Shown in pieces: positions 1 to 15,821 of a stretch of DNA of 26,665 nucleotides. The notes beneath the pieces are model-generated. The model ran no database searches and was not told the DNA's origin. It saw only the letters and a program-made list of their open reading frames with translations. The stretch comes from a virus. How positions within the stretch are numbered: position 1 is the stretch's first letter; each line of letters begins with the position of its first letter. Both the position numbers and the translations under genes were made by a program. The DNA is taken from the IMG/VR virus record IMGVR_UViG_3300048672_001522, positions 1-26,665 of that record; one strand, 5' to 3'.

Positions 1-22
1 ATTTTTATTTGGATTTGTCATT

Positions 23-1933
23 TTAGTCAGGGATCAAGGGATGTTTGGCTAAGACCTTGTTGGTCCGATCGTCCATTTCTTGTAGAGCACGGCGCAAATC
101 CCTGAGTGTTCGCTTGGCTTCCATCTCAAGCTCAATGCCCTCGTTCTTGGCAATTCTGATAGCTGCGGCTAAATCTTTTGATTCCAGGGCTTTATTTACC
201 GCTCTTATTCTAGCCCTTCGCTCATTGAGCATTGCAACATCTTCTTTTGTGATACCCATTGCAAGAATTTCCGCACTACCTCCGTTTGATTTTAAATCCC
301 TGTTTCGTTCGGTCGGTAGCGTAGTTGGGGGAACTACTGGGGGTCTATTTAGTCCCCCAGGCAATACTTTTAGCTTGGACTTAATTCGCTCTAAATTGCT
401 TTTTTGAGGTATAGATAGTTCCTTCTTGCACTTTTTCGTCGGGGATATACAACTAGCCCCGCAACTCAAACCTTTCTGGCATTGCTTGCGTTTTGGCGGC
501 AGAGAGGCACCAGGAAAAGCCAAAACCTTAGCGGCTGCAAACTCAGCCGCTATAGTATCCAGAGATTGGGAGTTAGGATATTGAGCATCCCCACCTGTTG
601 AATCTCCCAAATTACTAGTAATTGCTGCCACCGCAGTATCTGACCAATTTGGGAAGGCAGCATTTATTAGTCCTGTTACCAGTTCAGGACTCCAACCACC
701 AGATTTAGCATTAGAGACAATCGATACCAACACGTTAACTTGCTCGACGTTAAGTTGTGGCGTGGAATCCTTGTTCTCAGGAATGAGATACTCCTCTCCG
801 TACCGACTTGCAATCGCTTCAGGTTTGAGCGAAATCCCCAATCCTTGCAACTTGGTATCGGTATCCGCTAATACTCCTAAATCGGGGTCACTTTCGAGTT
901 TGCGCCATACTTTGGGATAGGCTGCGCCTGGAAAATTCCAATCAGTGAGCCATTTTACGACGCTATTATTAAAACTGTCGCAAATCAAATCAGCATCCGA
1001 TTCAATGACCGAATCAGCTACATCCTGATGCACCTCAGCTTGTGACCGACTACTACCATTATCGGTAGTCATGGTCTGAGATAGGATGATTTTGGCAATT
1101 GCCGCATCCATTTGGTCGCACAGCGATTTATAATCGACTGTCCCGTTGCGTGAGGATTCAAGGAATTCAATAGCCAGACCTTCTGGAATCATCATCCGGT
1201 CATCAAACCCAAAACTAGCTAGCGCATCCCAGAGAATATCTTTTTCCTGCTTGCTACTTCCTGCTGGATAAGTACCCTTACGGGCAGGCGAGGCAAATAA
1301 CTCCAGAAATCTCATCCACCACTTGACCCCGTTCCTTTTAAAGAATGTCGGCCAGTACAGCCAGTGAGCCAAACCTCTCCCATGCGGTTCGTCGTCGTGG
1401 TCAGCACCGACGCTAAAGTGCCAAAATTTCTTATCTGGTAATGCCTCACCTAGCGGATTACCATAAGTTTTGAGAGTAAGATTCTGGTCGATATCGAACT
1501 CAAAGCGACGGCGATCGCGCACTCTGATATCAGCAATACAGACATTATCCCCATCCCGTCCCCACAGTATTTCGGCTGCGCTAAATCCGTAGTGAACCCC
1601 ATACAACATTTTCTCGTTGCAGTCGTCCCACTTAATCGCCTTCAACTGCTGCTCTAAATGCGTGGCTGCCTGCTTATCAATCCGTTTTTCGCCACCTGGG
1701 AGCACTTCCCATTCATGAGATGTGACTGCTCTAAATCTTTGCTGAAGGCAAGATTTAACCTGGTCGTCCTGAAGAACGGCTTCGTATAATTTTAAATCCC
1801 CACCACCTTTAGTCAGCAGAATCTCATCAGTGGTGGGGAGATAGTTGCCAATCGCATTCACCCAGCCGCGTGTAATATCGCGACCATCCTTTATGCTGGC
1901 AAATTCGATTAGGCTAGGGCGATTGGCTACCAT
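23..1933 (-). CDS. Mu gp29-like portal protein (DUF935) with Cys-rich C-terminal extension
   Basis: Portal protein of 636 residues, expected to form the ring at the capsid vertex through which DNA is packaged. Residues about 1-430 have the DUF935/Mu gp29 character: an N-terminal stretch around DEILLTKGGGDLKLYEAVLQ, a Trp-rich centre (KKFWHFSV, HWLYWPTFFKRNGVKWWMRF) and an MTTDNGSSRSQAEVHQDV segment. After about residue 470 there is an extra tail with four cysteines (C485, C491, C495, C502) in a CxxxxxCGxxCIxxxxxxC pattern, then a Pro-rich linker and a charged helical end. The ATG at 1931-1933 lies 8 bases after the stop of the upstream DinD-like gene, so the two are probably co-transcribed. 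It is unusual that the portal is on the opposite strand from the capsid and terminase genes. The portal call is firm; the tail's role is unknown. Confidence 0.88.
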   Translation of the reverse strand: MVANRPSLIEFASIKDGRDITRGWVNAIGNYLPTTDEILLTKGGGDLKLYEAVLQDDQVKSCLQQRFRAVTSHEWEVLPGGEKRIDKQAATHLEQQLKAIKWDDCNEKMLYGVHYGFSAAEILWGRDGDNVCIADIRVRDRRRFEFDIDQNLTLKTYGNPLGEALPDKKFWHFSVGADHDDEPHGRGLAHWLYWPTFFKRNGVKWWMRFLELFASPARKGTYPAGSSKQEKDILWDALASFGFDDRMMIPEGLAIEFLESSRNGTVDYKSLCDQMDAAIAKIILSQTMTTDNGSSRSQAEVHQDVADSVIESDADLICDSFNNSVVKWLTDWNFPGAAYPKVWRKLESDPDLGVLADTDTKLQGLGISLKPEAIASRYGEEYLIPENKDSTPQLNVEQVNVLVSIVSNAKSGGWSPELVTGLINAAFPNWSDTAVAAITSNLGDSTGGDAQYPNSQSLDTIAAEFAAAKVLAFPGASLPPKRKQCQKGLSCGASCISPTKKCKKELSIPQKSNLERIKSKLKVLPGGLNRPPVVPPTTLPTERNRDLKSNGGSAEILAMGITKEDVAMLNERRARIRAVNKALESKDLAAAIRIAKNEGIELEMEAKRTLRDLRRALQEMDDRTNKVLAKHPLIPD

Positions 1934-1941
1934 TGTTTAAA

Positions 1942-2748
1942 TTATTCTCCGATTAGTTTCTGACGTTGACGACCATAGACGATACTGATCGCTTCATCTA
2001 ATCGATCGGGTGCTATATATTCGCTGGTTTGGGGACGGGTGACAGCAATCAATAGATCGTCGCGTCCAGCTTTGCGAATTTCATCCGTGAAGGCTTTGTG
2101 CGATTTCACCTTCTGACCTGTCCGACGCTGTACCTCTAGTTTTAACTGGTCAGCACTCAAGAATACATCAGTACTGCCAGTATTGAGGTTAATTACCTCA
2201 GTCACTTTGACCTGTTCACGCACGATCGCATCGGCACAACCAGATAAAGCAAGCACTACCTCGCGACCATGTATGGTGAGCATCGAATCTTGACGATCGA
2301 TCCGCTTGTTTCTTTCCCGCTCTAGCTGCAATTCTAGTTCTAACTCTCGTAGTCGATCGTTTTGAGCGGGGATGATTACCTCAGCCTCACGAGTTTTGGT
2401 AGCGAAATAATGCTTTGCTGCTTTTACGTTCGGTTTTCCACGACTATCACAAGCTAATGCGATATGGTAGCAAGCGATTCGAGATAGGCTGTAATCTTTT
2501 GCCTTCTGATGCTTCAGGGTTATTTCTAGAATTAAGGCATGAGATGAGATGTCTCCTACTGCCGATTCTAAGTTTTCTAACCCTAGCTGAATTGAGTTGT
2601 CAAACATCTGCCAAGCTTTGTAGCCAAGCATTTTTTGGAGATCTCGCGCAGACCACCACTCATTCCCTTTCTTGTCGTAGCGGCGAATTGAATCAAAAGG
2701 AGAACCGCTGTTCTCTTGCGATTTGCCCGAAACAGTAATACTATTCAT
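1942..2748 (-). CDS. DinD/BRO-like protein, copy A
   Basis: Protein of 268 residues when started at the ATG at 2746-2748. The frame stays open to 2892, but that extension would run through a structured leader, and the second copy at 15015 starts at the same MNSI position. The N-terminal half has the DinD/BRO-N pattern: FDSIRRYDKKGNEWWSARDL, an LGYKAWQMF segment and an LSRIACYHIALACDSRGKP segment. The C-terminal half differs from copy B: a Glu/Arg-rich coiled coil (RELELELQLERERNKR) and then an unrecognised domain. E. coli DinD inhibits RecA and phage BRO proteins often act as antirepressors; which applies here cannot be told. An SD-like AAGG lies about 11 bases upstream. It sits between the L,D-transpeptidase-like gene and the portal. 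Confidence 0.75.
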   Translation of the reverse strand: MNSITVSGKSQENSGSPFDSIRRYDKKGNEWWSARDLQKMLGYKAWQMFDNSIQLGLENLESAVGDISSHALILEITLKHQKAKDYSLSRIACYHIALACDSRGKPNVKAAKHYFATKTREAEVIIPAQNDRLRELELELQLERERNKRIDRQDSMLTIHGREVVLALSGCADAIVREQVKVTEVINLNTGSTDVFLSADQLKLEVQRRTGQKVKSHKAFTDEIRKAGRDDLLIAVTRPQTSEYIAPDRLDEAISIVYGRQRQKLIGE

Positions 2749-2779
2749 GTTGTGTTGACCTTCGTCAGAGGTTGATACC

Positions 2780-2822
2780 GCCCCTGGGGATTCGAGTGTG
2801 CCAACACTCTCCCGCGAGGGGC
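2780..2822 (-). ncRNA. Structured 5' leader RNA of DinD-like gene A
   Basis: Read on the minus strand, the leader folds as an outer helix GCCCCT/AGGGGC (2817-2822 with 2780-2785), an internal loop CGC/C, a helix GGGA/TCCC, a 3'-side bulge GAA and a terminal helix GAGTGT/ACACTC closed by TGGC. The same architecture precedes the second DinD-like gene. The outer helix there is GCCGAT/ATCGGC, a paired change that keeps pairing. Homology continues to the start codon. An ACCT (2769-2772) could pair with the AGGT of the SD (2758-2761). A -10-like TACAAT lies 7 bases upstream, so the RNA would begin at or near the motif. I do not recognise it as a named riboswitch. Confidence 0.6.
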
Positions 2823-2829
2823 TAATATT

Positions 2830-2856
2830 ATTGTAACACCAGCGATTAGATTTCAA
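2830..2856 (-). promoter_or_regulatory. Candidate promoter for leader A and DinD-like gene A
   Basis: On the minus strand there is TACAAT at 2835-2830 preceded by a TGn extended -10 element, with TTGAAA at 2856-2851 as a -35 candidate after a short 15-base spacer. Transcription would start next to the structured leader. No experimental support is available. Confidence 0.4.
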
Positions 2857-2885
2857 TATCCGTAAATCCTGCATTTCGCCTCCTG

Positions 2886-2916
2886 AAATCAAAAGCTCAA
2901 ATTGAGCTTTTGATTT
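2886..2916. terminator. Perfect 15-bp inverted repeat, terminator-like
   Basis: AAATCAAAAGCTCAA (2886-2900) is the exact reverse complement of TTGAGCTTTTGATTT (2902-2916) with a single A between. It lies between the L,D-transpeptidase-like gene, which ends at 2949, and the promoter of DinD-like gene A. The plus strand continues into TTT; the minus strand has no good T-tract. The central 17 bases recur exactly in the hairpin at 12246-12278, whose outer stem is different. Confidence 0.55.
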
Positions 2917-2948
2917 TTGCTCGATTTGTCTAGCATCAGTACTTGTCG

Positions 2949-3626
2949 TTACCCATACTCAACAATCAATTCAACCGATCGAATCCCAAGCCCAGCGAGA
3001 ATCTTGAATTCTCGTTGTGTTGCCGCCCACCCTTTGTCCGTAACTGCAACGATACAACCCATTGAACCTGGGACGTTTGCATCAAAATGGATGCCCCAAT
3101 CACCACGAACATCACCGTCTGTCTCCATTTCAAACGGGAATATCTGATAAAAGTTACCGGACACCCCTGTGACGTTGGGCATATATATCGGAGTGGTCTT
3201 AACTGTTAATCCCGCCTTTGTTTTGGCAACAACCATCGAGGTTGGGGGGATTAGTCCCCCTCGACGATTCCATGCGCCTTTATACTGTCGCCCTGGCAGT
3301 GATGATGTGGCGGTGATGGTGTTGTAAGCGATTCCATCCTTGACAAATTCCATCGTCCCCAGAATCAAATCCCCTGAGATGGCAGGGACAAGCTTAAACC
3401 GAACTTGGTATTTGCTCTCCTTCACCAACACTAGTGGCGAATACTCGCCCCAAAATTTCTCTAGAATTCCCTCTGGAATATTCGACTGCAACCAGTTCAG
3501 AGCATCTTTTTGCTGCTCCAACCCTTTATAATTCGCCGCTACATCCACTAAGAAATGGTCTCGCATTTTTACATCTAGGTTACTAACGTCACTGATGCCT
3601 GCTGATTCGCTCTGTTTGCTTACCAC
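2949..3626 (-). CDS. Putative L,D-transpeptidase-fold (YkuD-like) cell-wall protein
   Basis: Protein of 225 residues with a GTG start (3624-3626), the first gene of the left minus-strand operon. The C-terminal half carries GIHFDANVPGSMGCIV, resembling the His...Ser-x-Gly-Cys active site of YkuD/L,D-transpeptidase-fold enzymes (H180, S188, C191 here). The preceding segment RRGGLIPPTSM and beta-rich pattern suit a catalytic domain that acts on peptidoglycan. The N-terminal 80 residues are not recognised. In a phage such a protein could be an endolysin or a virion-associated wall-degrading enzyme; no other endolysin is visible in the window. No signal peptide is evident. The assignment rests on one motif, so it is tentative. 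Confidence 0.42.
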   Translation of the reverse strand: MVSKQSESAGISDVSNLDVKMRDHFLVDVAANYKGLEQQKDALNWLQSNIPEGILEKFWGEYSPLVLVKESKYQVRFKLVPAISGDLILGTMEFVKDGIAYNTITATSSLPGRQYKGAWNRRGGLIPPTSMVVAKTKAGLTVKTTPIYMPNVTGVSGNFYQIFPFEMETDGDVRGDWGIHFDANVPGSMGCIVAVTDKGWAATQREFKILAGLGIRSVELIVEYG

Positions 3627-3700
3627 TTTTGGGATATTATTCCTGCTCTATATCTAGCGCATTAATACTATAATTATCATATCATCACACTAGATATAGC
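3627..3700. promoter_or_regulatory. Divergent promoter region with inverted repeat
   Basis: This 74-bp AT-rich gap separates the left minus-strand operon from the rightward capsid operon. CTATATCTAG (3648-3657) and CTAGATATAG (3690-3699) are exact reverse complements 32 bases apart, centred on the gap. A perfect TATAAT (3669-3674) reads rightward, and a TATAGT-like box reads leftward across the same centre. The repeat is a plausible operator for coordinate control of both late transcripts. The rightward gene starts with GTG one base after the repeat and has no clear SD. Confidence 0.5.
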
Positions 3701-4630
3701 GTGGCAGCAGAAGTTTTACAGAAACCGATTGAGATTTTTTACTCTGGCAATCATGTTGATAGCCAGGGGAAAAAAGTTAAAGTCACCCCCGAAGAATTAG
3801 CAGCATCGGTTGCTGATTTCAATGCTAGTGGGGAGCGATTGCCGATGGTGCCAGGACATCCAGGTGATGACCAGCCCGTTGGTGGGTATGCCACTAAACT
3901 TGCTATTGTCAATGGTCGAGCAGCGGTAGTTGAAGCCGACGAAGTTAATTCGCTGTTTCGGTCAATCGTAAATAGCGGTGAACTCAATCGAGTATCGGTC
4001 AAGTTTCAACTCCCAGGTCATCCAAGCAACCCCACTAATAACTACCGATTCAAACATATCGGCTTTTTGGGACGCTCTAGACCAGCTTTAGACCAACTCA
4101 AATCGGCACAATTTAGCACTAATGATGGAGAAATAATTCTGATGGCAGACGATGAAGATAAGAGTGCTGAATTTGCCGAACGTGAGGCGGAATTCGCACG
4201 TAGAGAAGCAGAACTGGCAGCTAAAGAGGCACGGTTTGCGGCTCAGGCTAAATATGAGCCATTAGTAGAAAACTGGGTGCGAGACGGAAAGATTACACCC
4301 GCACAGAAAGCAGCTTTCATCGCATTATTCTGCACACTTCCAGACGGAGATGACGCAACATTCGCCGCAGCAGATGGCAGCAAACAATCTTTGGTCGAGT
4401 TTACGAAATCTTTCGTTGATGGCTTGCCCAAGCAGATTGAATATGGCGAAGTCTCCAAAGCGGAAAGCCAGAAGCCGCAAGAGGCGGCGTTTAAGGCGGT
4501 GGATTGCAAAGAACCCGATGGTGATGAATTGGCTATGCACAATGCCATCATTGCTTCTGGTGTCGATCCTAAAGACTCAAATGCCTATCAAGCGGCAGTC
4601 AAAAAAGCATACGCACGGGGGAAGAAATAA
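3701..4630 (+). CDS. Mu gpI-like head maturation protease with scaffold domain
   Basis: Protein of 309 residues. The N-terminal half matches the Mu-like prophage I protein pattern: IEIFYSGNHVDSQGKKV, PMVPGHPGDDQPVGGY with a conserved His-Pro, LNRVSVKF with a candidate Ser, and FLGRSRPALDQLK. These proteases cleave scaffold during head assembly. From about residue 150 the protein becomes an Ala/Glu/Arg-rich coiled coil (AEFAEREAEFARREAELAAK) typical of scaffold. An internal ATG at 4142-4144 with GGAG 11 bases upstream could start a separate scaffold product, as Mu gene Z does inside I. It starts with GTG and is the first gene of the plus-strand operon. Confidence 0.85.
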   Translation: MAAEVLQKPIEIFYSGNHVDSQGKKVKVTPEELAASVADFNASGERLPMVPGHPGDDQPVGGYATKLAIVNGRAAVVEADEVNSLFRSIVNSGELNRVSVKFQLPGHPSNPTNNYRFKHIGFLGRSRPALDQLKSAQFSTNDGEIILMADDEDKSAEFAEREAEFARREAELAAKEARFAAQAKYEPLVENWVRDGKITPAQKAAFIALFCTLPDGDDATFAAADGSKQSLVEFTKSFVDGLPKQIEYGEVSKAESQKPQEAAFKAVDCKEPDGDELAMHNAIIASGVDPKDSNAYQAAVKKAYARGKK

Positions 4631-12316: not shown

Positions 12317-12880
12317 GTGGCCAAGAAAGTTACCAAAATCAATTTACTCCCCGCTCACTTACGAGCAGAACTAGATAGACGGATTATCGAGTCTGGATAC
12401 GGTGACTATCGAGGACATTCTGAATGGTTGAAATCCGAGGGTCATGAGATCAGTAACACGACCATCTGCGATCATGGAACTAAAATCCGCGATCGCATCC
12501 AAGAATTAGCAGATGCAAAGAACTTTGCCATCGCCTATGGCATATCGGTGGGTGAGGGTGAGCAAGCCGTACCTCGGATGATCAACGGTATGGTGCAGGA
12601 TGCGTTGTTCAAGGTTGCTAGCAGAATCCATAAAACCGCTAGCAACCTACCCGATGACGACGACGGTGCGATTTGGAGTCTGCTCAAACAATTGAATATG
12701 CTGACTAAATCGCTAGCCGATACCAGTCGATCGGATGTGATGGTAGCCAAATATTCGGCTGAGGTCAGAGCCAAACAAGAGGCTAAATTTGCCGAACTTG
12801 AAGCTGAAGGTCAACTGCGCGGAATCGATGGAGAGTTTATGCGACGGATGCGGACAGAGGTACTTGGAATGGGTGATTAG
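12317..12880 (+). CDS. Mu gp27-like terminase small subunit (DUF3486)
   Basis: Protein of 187 residues starting with GTG. The N-terminus has the DUF3486 helix-turn-helix pattern (KINLLPAHLRAELDRRIIES, then YRGHSEWLKSEGHEISNTTI), the DNA-recognition part of Mu gp27-type small terminases. The rest is a long helical region ending in a charged tail. It sits 30 bases upstream of the large subunit, as in Mu (27-28). Unlike Mu, both lie far downstream of the capsid genes, and the portal is on the other strand. No clear SD precedes the GTG. Confidence 0.82.
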   Translation: MAKKVTKINLLPAHLRAELDRRIIESGYGDYRGHSEWLKSEGHEISNTTICDHGTKIRDRIQELADAKNFAIAYGISVGEGEQAVPRMINGMVQDALFKVASRIHKTASNLPDDDDGAIWSLLKQLNMLTKSLADTSRSDVMVAKYSAEVRAKQEAKFAELEAEGQLRGIDGEFMRRMRTEVLGMGD

Positions 12881-12910
12881 CCAATCAAAAGAACTAGATT
12901 GAATAAATAA

Positions 12911-14353
12911 GTGAGTATTGCCCAGCAGACAAAGCTACCAAGTTTAGGCGTGAAATTTTGGAAGTTCCAAAAGGACTTTCTAAGTGACACGTCTAGATTT
13001 ATAGCTGTCTGTTGGGCGCGTGGCAATGGTAAGTCACGCATTACTGCTCTCAAAATCGCCCTCGAAGTATTTGAAGCCGAAGCCAAAGGGAAACCCTCTA
13101 ACTGGTTAATCGTCTCCGCTACCGCACAGCAAGCCCAAGAAGCACTTAGGTTGGTTGAAGGTTGGAGTCGAGTTATCTATGGTACTGCCATCGCCCTCAA
13201 TATTATTGAGGAAGAGATTGAATTCAGGACTGAGGACGGGCTAGAACGATACACACGCTTTCGATTGCGATTAGGTCGCAGTACTCAGGTATTTGCCTTA
13301 TCAGCATCTCCTGAAGCAATTAGAGGATATAGCGCATCTGTCTTCTGGGATGAAGCCGCATTTTTCGCCGACTCCGAGAAGATGTGGGCGGCTCTGCAAC
13401 ACGTCACACGCGGCAAATATAAGATGATTGTAGCGTCCACCCCTATTGGCGGTGCTGAAAATAAGTTTTATCAAATCATGCACAATACGGCAGTCGTCAG
13501 GGGCAAGCCACTTTGGTCTCATCACTGGGCTGACATTCACCGAGCAATTGCCGACGGTCGAGTCTATGACTTAGAGTCTGAAAAAGCCGCCGCCGATCCA
13601 TACAGTTGGCAGTCCGAAATGCTGTTGTCCTGGTCGGACTCTCCTAACACTTGGTTTTCCTCCGAATTAATCGCCGCTTGCGAAGATCCAAGAGCATCGA
13701 CTATGGGGCACGGTCACACGCCCCATAGTCGATGCTTTATTGGAAATGACATAGGACTCAGGGGTGATAAGTGGGTAAGTTGGGTTTTGGAAGCTACCGA
13801 AGATTTCGGTTTGCATACTGTAGATCGCCCCAATGGTCAAAAAGCGAGTTATTACACTGGGGAACTAATCACCCGTGAGGTGGTGGTATTAGATCGATCA
13901 ACCTTTGCCGAACACGATCGACAGATTGCCAGACTAATGCACAAATATAATGTGATTCGCCTTTGTATCGACCAGGGAGGGATGGGAGAGCGGTCAACAG
14001 AGGAATATCAGAATTTGTACGGTTCGCGCGTTGAAGGCATCTTATTTAATGTTGAGAATAAGGGTTCAATGGCGATGCTCGGACTGGAGATGATGACCGA
14101 TCGGCGAGTATTACTACCTCAAGACCATCCAGAAATCGGGCAAGACTTCCGCAAACTTCAACGGGTCGTCAGTGCTGGTGGTGCTGTGAGATTCAATGCT
14201 CAAAGGGATTCCAGTGGACACGCTGATATATGCTGGGCATTCTTGATGGCACTGAATGCAGCAACTATCCCTGCAATAAAGGTTGAGGTCTACTCTAGTC
14301 GCTCCAGCTTATCTGCCCTGGCAGAGATGGCTGGATACCAATTCAACAGATAA
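12911..14353 (+). CDS. Terminase large subunit, Mu gp28-like
   Basis: Packaging motor and nuclease of 480 residues with a GTG start. ATPase: Walker A variant CWARGNGKS (R37, G38, K41, S42), Walker B SVFWDE (D147, E148) and motif III ASTPIG (175-180). RNase H-like nuclease: candidate metal ligands D280 in FIGNDIGLRGD, D354 in LCIDQGGMGE and D439 in SSGHADICWAF. All key residues are present, so it should be functional. A 17-bp perfect inverted repeat (13693-13736) lies exactly at the joint between the two domains, encoding residues 261-276. It follows the gp27-like gene by 30 bases. Confidence 0.9.
   Translation: MSIAQQTKLPSLGVKFWKFQKDFLSDTSRFIAVCWARGNGKSRITALKIALEVFEAEAKGKPSNWLIVSATAQQAQEALRLVEGWSRVIYGTAIALNIIEEEIEFRTEDGLERYTRFRLRLGRSTQVFALSASPEAIRGYSASVFWDEAAFFADSEKMWAALQHVTRGKYKMIVASTPIGGAENKFYQIMHNTAVVRGKPLWSHHWADIHRAIADGRVYDLESEKAAADPYSWQSEMLLSWSDSPNTWFSSELIAACEDPRASTMGHGHTPHSRCFIGNDIGLRGDKWVSWVLEATEDFGLHTVDRPNGQKASYYTGELITREVVVLDRSTFAEHDRQIARLMHKYNVIRLCIDQGGMGERSTEEYQNLYGSRVEGILFNVENKGSMAMLGLEMMTDRRVLLPQDHPEIGQDFRKLQRVVSAGGAVRFNAQRDSSGHADICWAFLMALNAATIPAIKVEVYSSRSSLSALAEMAGYQFNR
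13693..13736. repeat. 17-bp inverted repeat inside the terminase gene
   Basis: AGCATCGACTATGGGGC (13693-13709) is the exact reverse complement of GCCCCATAGTCGATGCT (13720-13736), with a 10-base loop. In mRNA this would be a very stable hairpin. It encodes the linker RASTMGHGHTPHSR between the ATPase and nuclease domains and is followed by TTTATT. Confidence 0.9.
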
Positions 14354-14422
14354 AATCATCCTTAAGAAGACAACAATAGTTGCTATACCGAATAGGATTG
14401 AAATATCTATATTGGTCTTAGT

Positions 14423-14596
14423 ATGTCCCTACCTATTAGAATTGAGTCATTATTGGAACTATCCCAGCAGCAATGCGAACGGGCTATCCAAGCAATCGAC
14501 CGATTAATATCAGATGCAGCACTACCCCGACGACATAGCTACCAGCCCGTTACCCGAAATTCGAGCACTACTCATCACGAACGAGCAATTAATTAG
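14423..14596 (+). CDS. Small hypothetical protein overlapping the XhlA-like gene
   Basis: A 57-residue frame starting MSLPIRIESLLELSQQQCER and continuing AIQAIDRLISDA before a Pro/Arg/Thr-rich end. The first 32 residues look like a real amphipathic helical protein, while the final part overlaps the next gene in another frame. Without it there would be a 160-base hole after the terminase. No strong SD is seen. It may be real, but support is only compositional and positional. Confidence 0.4.
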   Translation: MSLPIRIESLLELSQQQCERAIQAIDRLISDAALPRRHSYQPVTRNSSTTHHERAIN

Positions 14597-14882
14597 AAGT
14601 CTTGCCGAAGCCCAAAAAGAGAACGCATCAGAAAGCAAAAAGCTAGCACAGTCGATTGGCAATCTCGAAGGTCAACTGATGGTGATTTGCAGTAGGTTAG
14701 ACCGAATCGATAAAGACTCAGAACTAAGCAGGGACGAAAGTGCTGCACAACGAGCGCGTTCTCATTCACAAACCTGGATAATTTGGGGTGCATTACTGAC
14801 TGCTATTCTGGCTGTGGTTGTGCCACTGATAATCCGCCCTGGCGCAATTTATCAGCCGTCTAGCGTTTCTACCCCTAAGTAA
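14514..14882 (+). CDS. XhlA-like coiled-coil and membrane protein, lysis candidate
   Basis: Protein of 122 residues: a helical, charged N-terminal 85 residues (EQLIRSLAEAQKENASESKK, then LEGQLMVICSRLDRIDKD) forming a likely coiled coil, and one C-terminal membrane segment WIIWGALLTAILAVVVPLII at about residues 88-107. The plan matches XhlA-type hemolysin-family proteins that assist holins, but it is longer than the usual 70-90 residues. It is the last gene before the promoter and leader of DinD-like gene B. The lysis role is inferred. Confidence 0.5.
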   Translation: MQHYPDDIATSPLPEIRALLITNEQLIRSLAEAQKENASESKKLAQSIGNLEGQLMVICSRLDRIDKDSELSRDESAAQRARSHSQTWIIWGALLTAILAVVVPLIIRPGAIYQPSSVSTPK

Positions 14883-14924
14883 TATATACGTTGTTTAACG
14901 GAGTTTGCTTTCGCCCGCGTAGCG

Positions 14925-14930
14925 TATAAT
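14925..14930 (+). promoter_or_regulatory. -10 box for leader B and DinD-like gene B
   Basis: A perfect TATAAT lies 10 bases upstream of the structured leader, so transcription would begin at or just before its first helix. The -35 is weak; TTGCTT at 14905-14910 has only a 14-base spacer. Confidence 0.45.
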
Positions 14931-14940
14931 CAAACATCAA

Positions 14941-14984
14941 GCCGATCGCGGGAGAGTGTTGAAGCACTCAGAATCCCCATCGGC
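14941..14984 (+). ncRNA. Structured 5' leader RNA of DinD-like gene B
   Basis: Folds as an outer helix GCCGAT/ATCGGC, internal loop CGC/C, helix GGGA/TCCC, bulge AGAA and terminal helix GAGTGT/GCACTC closed by TGAA. Compared with the minus-strand copy at 2780-2822, the outer helix changes at paired positions and the top helix has a U-A to U-G change. The bulge, the GGGA/TCCC helix and the CGCGGGAGAGTGTTG string are conserved. Downstream ACCT (14991-14994) could pair with AGG of the SD (15003-15005). It resembles a riboswitch or a phage regulatory RNA, but no known class was recognised. Confidence 0.6.
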
Positions 14985-15014
14985 GGTACCACCTACTCAC
15001 ATAGGACAGCACAA

Positions 15015-15821
15015 ATGAATAGTATCAAGGTTTTGAGCAATTCGCAACAGGACAACAGTACCCTTTTTGATTCGATTCGGCATCTAGACGAGAATGGGAA
15101 AGAGTTTTGGTATGCACGAGAATTAATGCCAATTCTTGGTTATAAACAGTGGAGACAATTTGAGGATGCAATCGATCGAGCGCAAGCAGCTTGCAAGAAT
15201 GCCGGAAACCCAGTCGTAGAGCATTTTTTGCGGAACGACGCAAAATCTACAACACGTAGTGGTAAGGACTATCGACTATCTCGCTACGCTTGTTATCTCA
15301 CAGCGATGAATGGTGATTCACGCAAAACAGAGATAGCAGCAGCTCAGTCTTATTTTGCCGCCCAAGCCCGCAAAGCGGAAACAGCAGAAGCAGAAGCACG
15401 AACTATCGTCGCTGACAGCTTCGACTCGCTCACCAGTGGGAAATTGATGGGGATTCGGAACGCTTTGATGAATCCTGGCAGCGTGTCTCCTGATGAATTT
15501 GCGGTTCTAACCGAAGGTATCAGCCAGACGTTAGTTGCAAAAATCGGCGCATTGACCAACGACCAATATGTCAAATTGTTCTTGAAACTTCGGACGGCTC
15601 GTGTACCTCAAGACATCCAAGACCAGATAGAGGCTGGCGAGTTCAACGATAAGGAGTTGAAAATTGCCGAAAAGACGATCGAGCGATTCGATAACCTGCA
15701 AAAGGTTGCGGATCGAAAGTGGCAACAGTCGATCGGTGACGGTGCAAATCAGAAGGTACTAAAAGACAATGTTATCCAAATGCCACTAATTGATGCTTCC
15801 GAGCAATCGCAGGCAGGATAG
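15015..15821 (+). CDS. DinD-like protein, copy B
   Basis: Protein of 268 residues, exactly the length of copy A. The N-terminal domain closely follows E. coli DinD: LFDSIRHLDENGKEFWYARE, LGYKQWRQFEDAIDRAQAAC, DYRLSRYACYLTAMNGDSRK and AAAQSYFAAQARKAE. DinD is an SOS-induced inhibitor of RecA filaments; phage relatives may regulate lysogeny or recombination. The C-terminal half is unlike copy A. AGGA lies 8 bases before the ATG. It is the sole gene behind its own promoter and structured leader, and its stop codon directly abuts that of the convergent integrase. Confidence 0.75.
   Translation: MNSIKVLSNSQQDNSTLFDSIRHLDENGKEFWYARELMPILGYKQWRQFEDAIDRAQAACKNAGNPVVEHFLRNDAKSTTRSGKDYRLSRYACYLTAMNGDSRKTEIAAAQSYFAAQARKAETAEAEARTIVADSFDSLTSGKLMGIRNALMNPGSVSPDEFAVLTEGISQTLVAKIGALTNDQYVKLFLKLRTARVPQDIQDQIEAGEFNDKELKIAEKTIERFDNLQKVADRKWQQSIGDGANQKVLKDNVIQMPLIDASEQSQAG

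Follow-up and report, generated by a model that had tools for sequence, protein, structure and literature searches.

A repeated 5′ leader that looks like an undescribed small RNA control element of cyanobacterial viruses

Why should two DinD-like genes of one virus begin with leaders that share both sequence and fold? The leaders lie in the 26,665-base virus record IMGVR_UViG_3300048672_001522 (hereafter the window), upstream of genes that we call A and B. A preliminary description of this DNA had proposed that they form an RNA-based control element accompanying DinD-like genes, acting as a riboswitch, a c4-like regulatory RNA or a protein-binding site. We find that the likeness of the two leaders is not due to chance and that they belong to a family of 21 copies in 10 phage records, of which 20 were found by covariance models and one, strongly diverged, by synteny. 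Within the literature covered, which comprised openly licensed full texts, the family looks like an undescribed small RNA control element of cyanobacterial viruses, and we consider it very probable that the element is a structured RNA leader.

Copy A forms a 43-nucleotide (nt) hairpin at 2780..2822 on the minus strand, recognized by its fold, by covariance models R1-R3 and by covariation. Read from 2822 to 2780, it runs GCCCCU-c-G-c-GGGA-GAGUGU-UGGC-ACACUC-GAA-UCCC-C-AGGGGC, comprising an outer helix (GCCCCU/AGGGGC), a CGC/C internal loop, a GGGA/UCCC helix, an apical helix and a GAA bulge. Copy B, supported by the same kinds of evidence, is a 44-nt hairpin at 14941..14984 on the plus strand (GCCGAU-c-G-c-GGGA-GAGUGU-UGAA-GCACUC-AGAA-UCCC-C-AUCGGC). 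Its outer helix, GCCGAU/AUCGGC, differs from that of copy A in two neighboring pairs, both of which still form, and the top pair changes from U-A to U-G, which also preserves pairing. Local alignment of the two copies gave a score of 121, compared with a maximum of 25 in 300 shuffles, and RNAfold assigned the leaders z-scores of -3.0 (A) and -2.6 (B). These results bear out the coordinates, sequences, shared fold and compensatory changes given in the preliminary description. The string CGCGGGAGAGTGTTG, to which it had also drawn attention, is indeed conserved between A and B, but the signature of the family lies elsewhere, in a UCRCG/CYA internal loop, a GUA flank and the pairing itself.

Both hairpins are followed on their 3′ side by the flank GGTA, identified by alignment (2776..2779, minus strand; 14985..14988, plus strand). 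Upstream of copy A lies an extended -10 element, TGTTACAAT (2830..2838, minus strand), in which TACAAT, a 5/6 match, is accompanied by the extended TG; copy B has TATAAT (14925..14930, plus strand). Because these boxes lie 7 nt (A) and 10 nt (B) upstream of the stem, a transcription start at the base of the stem, as previously suggested, is plausible. Downstream of the hairpin, a mini-hairpin can mask the ribosome site in each copy: in A a weak one (2758..2772, minus strand) pairing ACCT (2769-2772) with AGGT (2758-2761), and in B one (14992..15005, plus strand) pairing CCTA (14992-14995) with TAGG (15002-15005). The pairs noted earlier are real, but the masking is weak, with predicted unpaired probabilities of the ribosome site of 0.66 in A and 0.17 in B. 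As a separate observation, a GTATCA-like direct repeat follows the hairpin (window 2773-2778) and recurs over codons 3-4 (2737-2742), a feature found in several window-group copies.

Further copies were sought with sequence patterns, proteins and the covariance models R1, R2 and R3, which were built in sequence, each from earlier hits. A 15-base pattern led to the contig of L004 (3300043404_000019, labeled G3), which holds two copies; a second pattern led to the contig of L035/L092 (3300046778_000250, G1), also with two; and the gene A protein led to the contig of L018/L094 (3300043409_002003, G2), with one strongly diverged copy. Suffixes A, B and C after these labels denote the leader site in the contig. 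Among viral contigs, the exact motif CGCGGGAGAGTGTTG matched 11, of which L004 alone was real, and the pattern CCTAC..ACATAGG..ATGA matched 74 stretches, mostly by chance, yielding L035 as the one new real contig. Among genome contigs, a strict pattern search gave zero matches, and the portal protein as bait retrieved only non-cyanobacterial relatives. Model R1, applied to 67 loci of DinD/Bro-N relatives, returned exactly two significant matches, L148 and L158 (29.6 bits), each directly upstream of a lone A-type Bro gene flanked by opposite-strand tail genes. On whole records, model R2 showed that the isolated Planktothrix phage PaV-LD carries two copies and that the L148 contig has a second one; model R3 added a third PaV-LD copy, making three in this phage, and two to three copies in each of three PaV-LD-like contigs. 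The 10 records consist of the window, three close relatives, two more distant contigs, PaV-LD and the three PaV-LD-like contigs.

Accepted members, from cyanophage records, score 31-70 bits, whereas the model maximum was 20.1 bits in 50 control records (mostly pattern matches), 16.5 bits in 39 further records (mostly non-cyanobacterial DinD loci) and 16 bits in earlier control loci totaling 915 kilobases; the E-values of the models are rough. No copy was detected in the cyanophages A-4L, 2AV2, CL131, LMM01, Mic1 and Nostoc A1, where the best result was one 16-bit match. Searches with leader DNA found no match to A in phages and none to B in plasmids, and PaV-LD was the only significant match of PaV-LD-type leader DNA in phages and plasmids. 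Comparison with Rfam release 15 revealed no family at or above its gathering threshold in the window, in 12 DinD-type loci or in seven further leader loci, and none for leaders A and B even at E<=5.

Evidence for an RNA comes from the way in which the stems vary. Among the 19 distinct model-aligned copies that make up the covariation set, 98.3% of pair cells hold standard pairs, and double changes occur at seven of the 11 lower-stem pairs (36 cells). None of 500 shuffles reached the observed covariation score; slid-structure controls produced at most three double-change cells, and shifting the partner by one column reduced pairing to approximately 52%. A hand alignment of eight hairpins, including the diverged G2A (GUGCC-c-A-c-GCG-GAGAG...CUCUC-GACA-CGC-U-GGCAC), contained 112 canonical cells out of 116 and compensatory changes in 11 of 16 pairs. 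The outer arms differ among copies of one genome, and nearly all are fully paired with their own partner. Homologues upstream of further Bro/DinD genes, and an outer helix that still pairs in them, were both anticipated by the preliminary description; their recovery by model searches and alignment supports its view of a probable RNA-level control element.

While the stems drift, certain unpaired bases stay. The internal loop is fixed as U-C-R-C-G on the 5′ strand and C-Y-A on the 3′ strand, Y being C in all aligned copies and U in G2A, and N-GUA follows right after the hairpin, GUA being invariant in 19/19 distinct aligned copies. The hairpin is 30-44 nt long with a variable top; an upper stem of 5-6 base pairs (bp) is present in the window group and absent in the other copies. 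We also noted that in three copies, A (window 2746-2823), B (window 14941-15017) and G3C (L004:3054-3130), the GUGUUG at the apex could base-pair with a CAACAC (or CAGCAC) that lies after the ribosome site and before the AUG, a match not seen in the other copies. A -10 box with at least a 5/6 match lies 6-14 nt before the stem in all 20 copies that have a gene, the gap being 6-11 nt in the window group and 12-14 nt in most PaV-LD-type copies. From hairpin to ATG, a linker of 25-33 nt holds the Shine-Dalgarno site, and 16 of the 20 copies can form an anti-Shine-Dalgarno helix of 3 bp or more, compared with 7.5 expected after shuffling. Where an open reading frame (ORF) is present, the leader always stands in sense orientation directly before the start codon. 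A covarying stem, fixed unpaired bases and a sense position before the start codon, the features of a structured cis-regulatory 5′ leader, thus occur together.

In a seven-copy alignment, homology begins near the -10 box and stops a few codons past the ATG, where the genes diverge. A mobile DNA hairpin of the attC or IS200/605-like kind was set aside on reading this alignment: the shared sequence runs out close to the promoter and start codon, and no far end to match it was observed. A leader peptide was likewise set aside: most copies are open in one frame, but the frame is not common to them, and in L148/L158 it runs on into the gene.

The genes behind the leader are of several kinds. Gene A (1942..2748, minus strand; ATG at 2748) encodes a DinD-like Bro-N protein (Bro-N 1.6e-05; phrog_8036 2e-18; NCBIfam DinD 8.9e-24, below cut-off) and lies directly upstream of a Mu-type portal gene (23-1933). 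Gene B (15015..15821, plus strand), assigned to the same type from its ORF and profiles (Bro-N 1.6e-11; phrog_8036 2.3e-38), sits between a small unassigned gene and an integrase gene. Bro-N/DinD genes follow only seven of the 21 copies (A, B, G3A, G2A, G1B, L148 and L158). AntA antirepressors follow four, namely L204, L220 and L222, assigned by close sequence similarity, and L225, whose AntA match (E 1.6e-4) is below the Pfam cut-off while PHROG anti-repressor profiles reach 4e-11; the L204 gene is PaV-LD ORF099R/100R, annotated as an anti-repressor. Members of phrog_32599, a family without known function, stand behind five copies (L203, L219 and L223 by profile; L217 and L221 by sequence similarity). 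The remaining copies precede an antirepressor-like phrog_63 gene (L224), a phrog_4652 gene (L207), a possible PD-(D/E)XK nuclease gene just upstream of the portal gene (G1A; weak Pfam match, E 0.18) and a gene without profile match whose middle resembles AntA by eye (G3C), and no intact ORF lies behind L218. The G1A and G3A hairpins are identical, yet the genes that they precede differ (possible nuclease versus Bro-N), and the sequences indicate that the leader persists through replacement of the gene behind it. Conversely, approximately 60 DinD-like loci of other phages and cyanobacterial plasmids lack the leader. Given the several gene types, the leader is a module of several accessory genes, a fair proportion of which are antirepressor-type, and not the companion of DinD-like genes alone that it had been taken for.

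Several side observations concern these genes. Gene B (15015-15821) also matches the PADLOC phage-defence candidate PDC-S13 (2.8e-46), apparently a DinD-like profile. The Bro protein at site B of L092 (17912-18667) looks chimeric, its N-terminal half being gene A-like and its C-terminal half gene B-like. Comparison of window 1-4630 and 12317-15821 with L092 places the terminase-to-gene-B block of the window on the other side and strand relative to the portal, which suggests an inversion. In PaV-LD, a stop codon divides the AntA-type antirepressor gene (HQ683709.1 72166-72960) into ORF099R and ORF100R; L222 and L225 carry uninterrupted relatives. PaV-LD-type DinD genes have a different hairpin at the same place (L189 ~1395-1440; L118, L120, L121, L123 and L124), arranged as TGTAyAAT, 6-8 nt, GAGAAAAGC..GGAG..CUCC..GCUUUUCUC; in some cases a further hairpin, AACCC/GGGUU, then surrounds the ribosome site. 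This different hairpin may represent either a second class of leader or a terminator that works in both directions. In L139, L151, L155, L161 and L171, contigs that are probably from actinophages, the DinD-like gene is directly preceded by GC-rich hairpins in which a C.A mismatch recurs, for example GCCG-c-CACCUG..CAGGUG-a-CGGC, and R3 did not match such hairpins.

How might the leader act? Structure kept through sequence change, the asymmetric fixed loop, the sense orientation, the nearly fixed start-codon distance and outer arms that differ within a genome all favor action as RNA within the message over a DNA operator common to the copies. Recognition by a partner is suggested by the fixed unpaired bases, and an influence on translation initiation by the linker. 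We therefore favor a 5′ leader of the mRNA that would tune translation or stability, probably through a trans-acting binder. Transcription would start at or just before the stem, making the hairpin the 5′ end of the message; a putative phage or host protein would likely read the fixed loop and the GUA flank as RNA; its binding would alter ribosome access or message stability; and the linker mini-hairpin would keep basal translation of the antirepressor-type and accessory genes low, such that a genome's copies would together make up a small post-transcriptional regulon. To this explanation as a whole we give about an even chance. Judged from the sequences, action on translation or stability is somewhat more probable than not, and reading of the leader by a trans-acting putative binder is quite possible, falling a little short of even. 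We propose more tentatively that this new RNA family serves cyanophages as a phage-wide post-transcriptional switch, in which one factor would read the UCRCG/CYA loop and GUA of several leaders simultaneously, timing antirepressors and other accessory genes, and that the leader is exchanged between genes as a module. Of the three mechanisms originally offered, a protein-binding RNA site is the best; a riboswitch is unlikely for so small a motif, and no ligand-related gene context was seen.

Several points weigh against this explanation. The models grew stepwise from their own hits, structure-fitted alignments favor the structure to which they were fitted, and the copies are phylogenetically related, so that each change counted need not be a separate event. 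G2A, the diverged copy, was missed by the models and is assigned by synteny, promoter and downstream flank. The presumed start at the stem is deduced from promoter position, and the trans-acting binder is putative. Finally, the predicted masking of the ribosome site is thermodynamically weak and the site is open in A and G1B, and four PaV-LD-type copies cannot form an anti-Shine-Dalgarno helix of 3 bp or more.

Other explanations share part of this evidence. The hairpin could be a passive 5′ stabilizer of the ompA type, slowing 5′-end-dependent decay while the linker tunes the ribosome site, with no trans factor. In the window group, the gap of 6-11 nt puts the stem base where transcription is expected to start, and upper stem length and loops vary freely, both of which would fit, but a stabilizer does not need a fixed loop and an invariant GUA, and the 12-14 nt gap in most PaV-LD-type copies may leave several unpaired 5′ bases; we consider this explanation unlikely. 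At the DNA level, an inverted repeat overlapping +1 could serve as an operator through which a dimeric Bro-N/AntA-type regulator represses its own promoter. Its position just downstream of the -10 box and the frequency of genes for DNA-binding antirepressor-like proteins behind it are in keeping with an operator, in which half-site covariation can also arise. Half-sites that differ between copies of one genome, each still paired within itself, argue against an operator, although a separate protein for each copy could account for them; moreover, the fixed unpaired bases are one-sided, CRC standing in the 5′ strand and GUA behind the stem, the distance between the arms varies by approximately 13 bp, more than one helical turn, and the leader, where an ORF is present, is always sense before a start codon. 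The operator is accordingly disfavored and, in our estimation, rather improbable.

Two further RNA mechanisms appear quite improbable. In the c4-like mechanism that had been suggested for the leaders, the hairpin would be released as a small antisense RNA that pairs with the ribosome sites of antirepressor genes, which are the classical c4/sar targets (PMC12197685), and the apical GUGUUGGC of A can indeed pair with GUCAACAC next to the gene A start. However, the best start-region complementarities (21.0 and 23.0) are no better than the shuffled-leader means (21.7 and 21.5), G3A/G1A and L148/L158 lack the GUGUUG/CAACAC match, the loops are variable, and Rfam offered no match. Alternatively, the nascent leader might bind RNA polymerase and confer termination resistance, as HK022 put RNA does. 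Most genomes have two to three promoter-proximal copies, up to two stem-loops fit within ~70-80 nt, as in HK022 (PMC9378689), and copy A stands first in a block that includes the portal gene; set against this are the nearly fixed start-codon distance of 25-33 nt, the copies before single accessory genes (e.g., L148/L158, between opposite-strand genes) and a second stem of only 3-5 bp. As for an attenuator or terminator hairpin, the GC-rich stem would be suitable, but no T run follows either copy, no terminator-like site was found at the element, and a terminator would not be expected to combine fixed internal-loop bases with covarying stems, making this reading highly improbable.

The window encodes, by profile matches, a Mu-type portal protein, a terminase, an integrase and a KilAC antirepressor. 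HIP1 (GCGATCGC) occurs five times in it versus 0.28 expected, and CGATCG 32 times versus 5.3 expected; because both are far above expectation, the host is most likely a cyanobacterium. To our knowledge, little is known about the control of lysogeny and accessory genes in temperate cyanophages. A leader common to antirepressor-type genes of several phage groups, including an isolated Planktothrix phage, provides a directly testable handle on this control and would add a sense-strand, structure-based element beside the antisense RNAs that control antirepressors; the covariance model can also be used on cyanobacterial genomes to map prophage regulons.

How, then, does the leader compare with known systems? 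5′-terminal stem-loops of the ompA type stabilize mRNA, and a pure stabilizer needs no fixed loop or flank sequence; the cyanophage leader resembles them in having its stem at the presumed 5′ end of the message and differs in its fixed internal-loop and flank sequence. HK022 put RNA, present twice per genome with two stem-loops and bulges, is likewise a promoter-proximal structured phage RNA of ~70 nt (PMC9378689). Unlike put, the leader has one strong hairpin, with a second of 3-5 bp or none, and stands at a nearly fixed distance from the start codon, also before lone accessory genes. Put may be regarded as a functional analogue. With the c4/sar RNAs of P1/P7 and P22, the leader appears to share a setting of RNA-level control at antirepressor genes of temperate phages, and c4, at ~77 nt, is near the leader in length (PMC12197685); it differs from them in lacking conserved start-region complementarity and an Rfam match and in being joined to many gene types. 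The nearest known analogue is the SAS/ESAS of cluster K mycobacteriophages (PMC3203893, PMC11373665, PMC12699233). The SAS consensus GGGATAGGAGCCC is not enriched in the window (six matches at three mismatches versus 4.6 expected, no match with fewer than three mismatches, and none at the leaders). Like SAS/ESAS, however, the leader is a repeated, phage-borne inverted repeat near a promoter; it stands beside a conserved ribosome-site sequence and a start codon and precedes several genes that are unrelated to one another. ESAS was proposed to be a DNA operator. Its authors found no support for RNA pairing (PMC3203893); the cyanophage leader, from different hosts, is set apart by stems that covary strongly.
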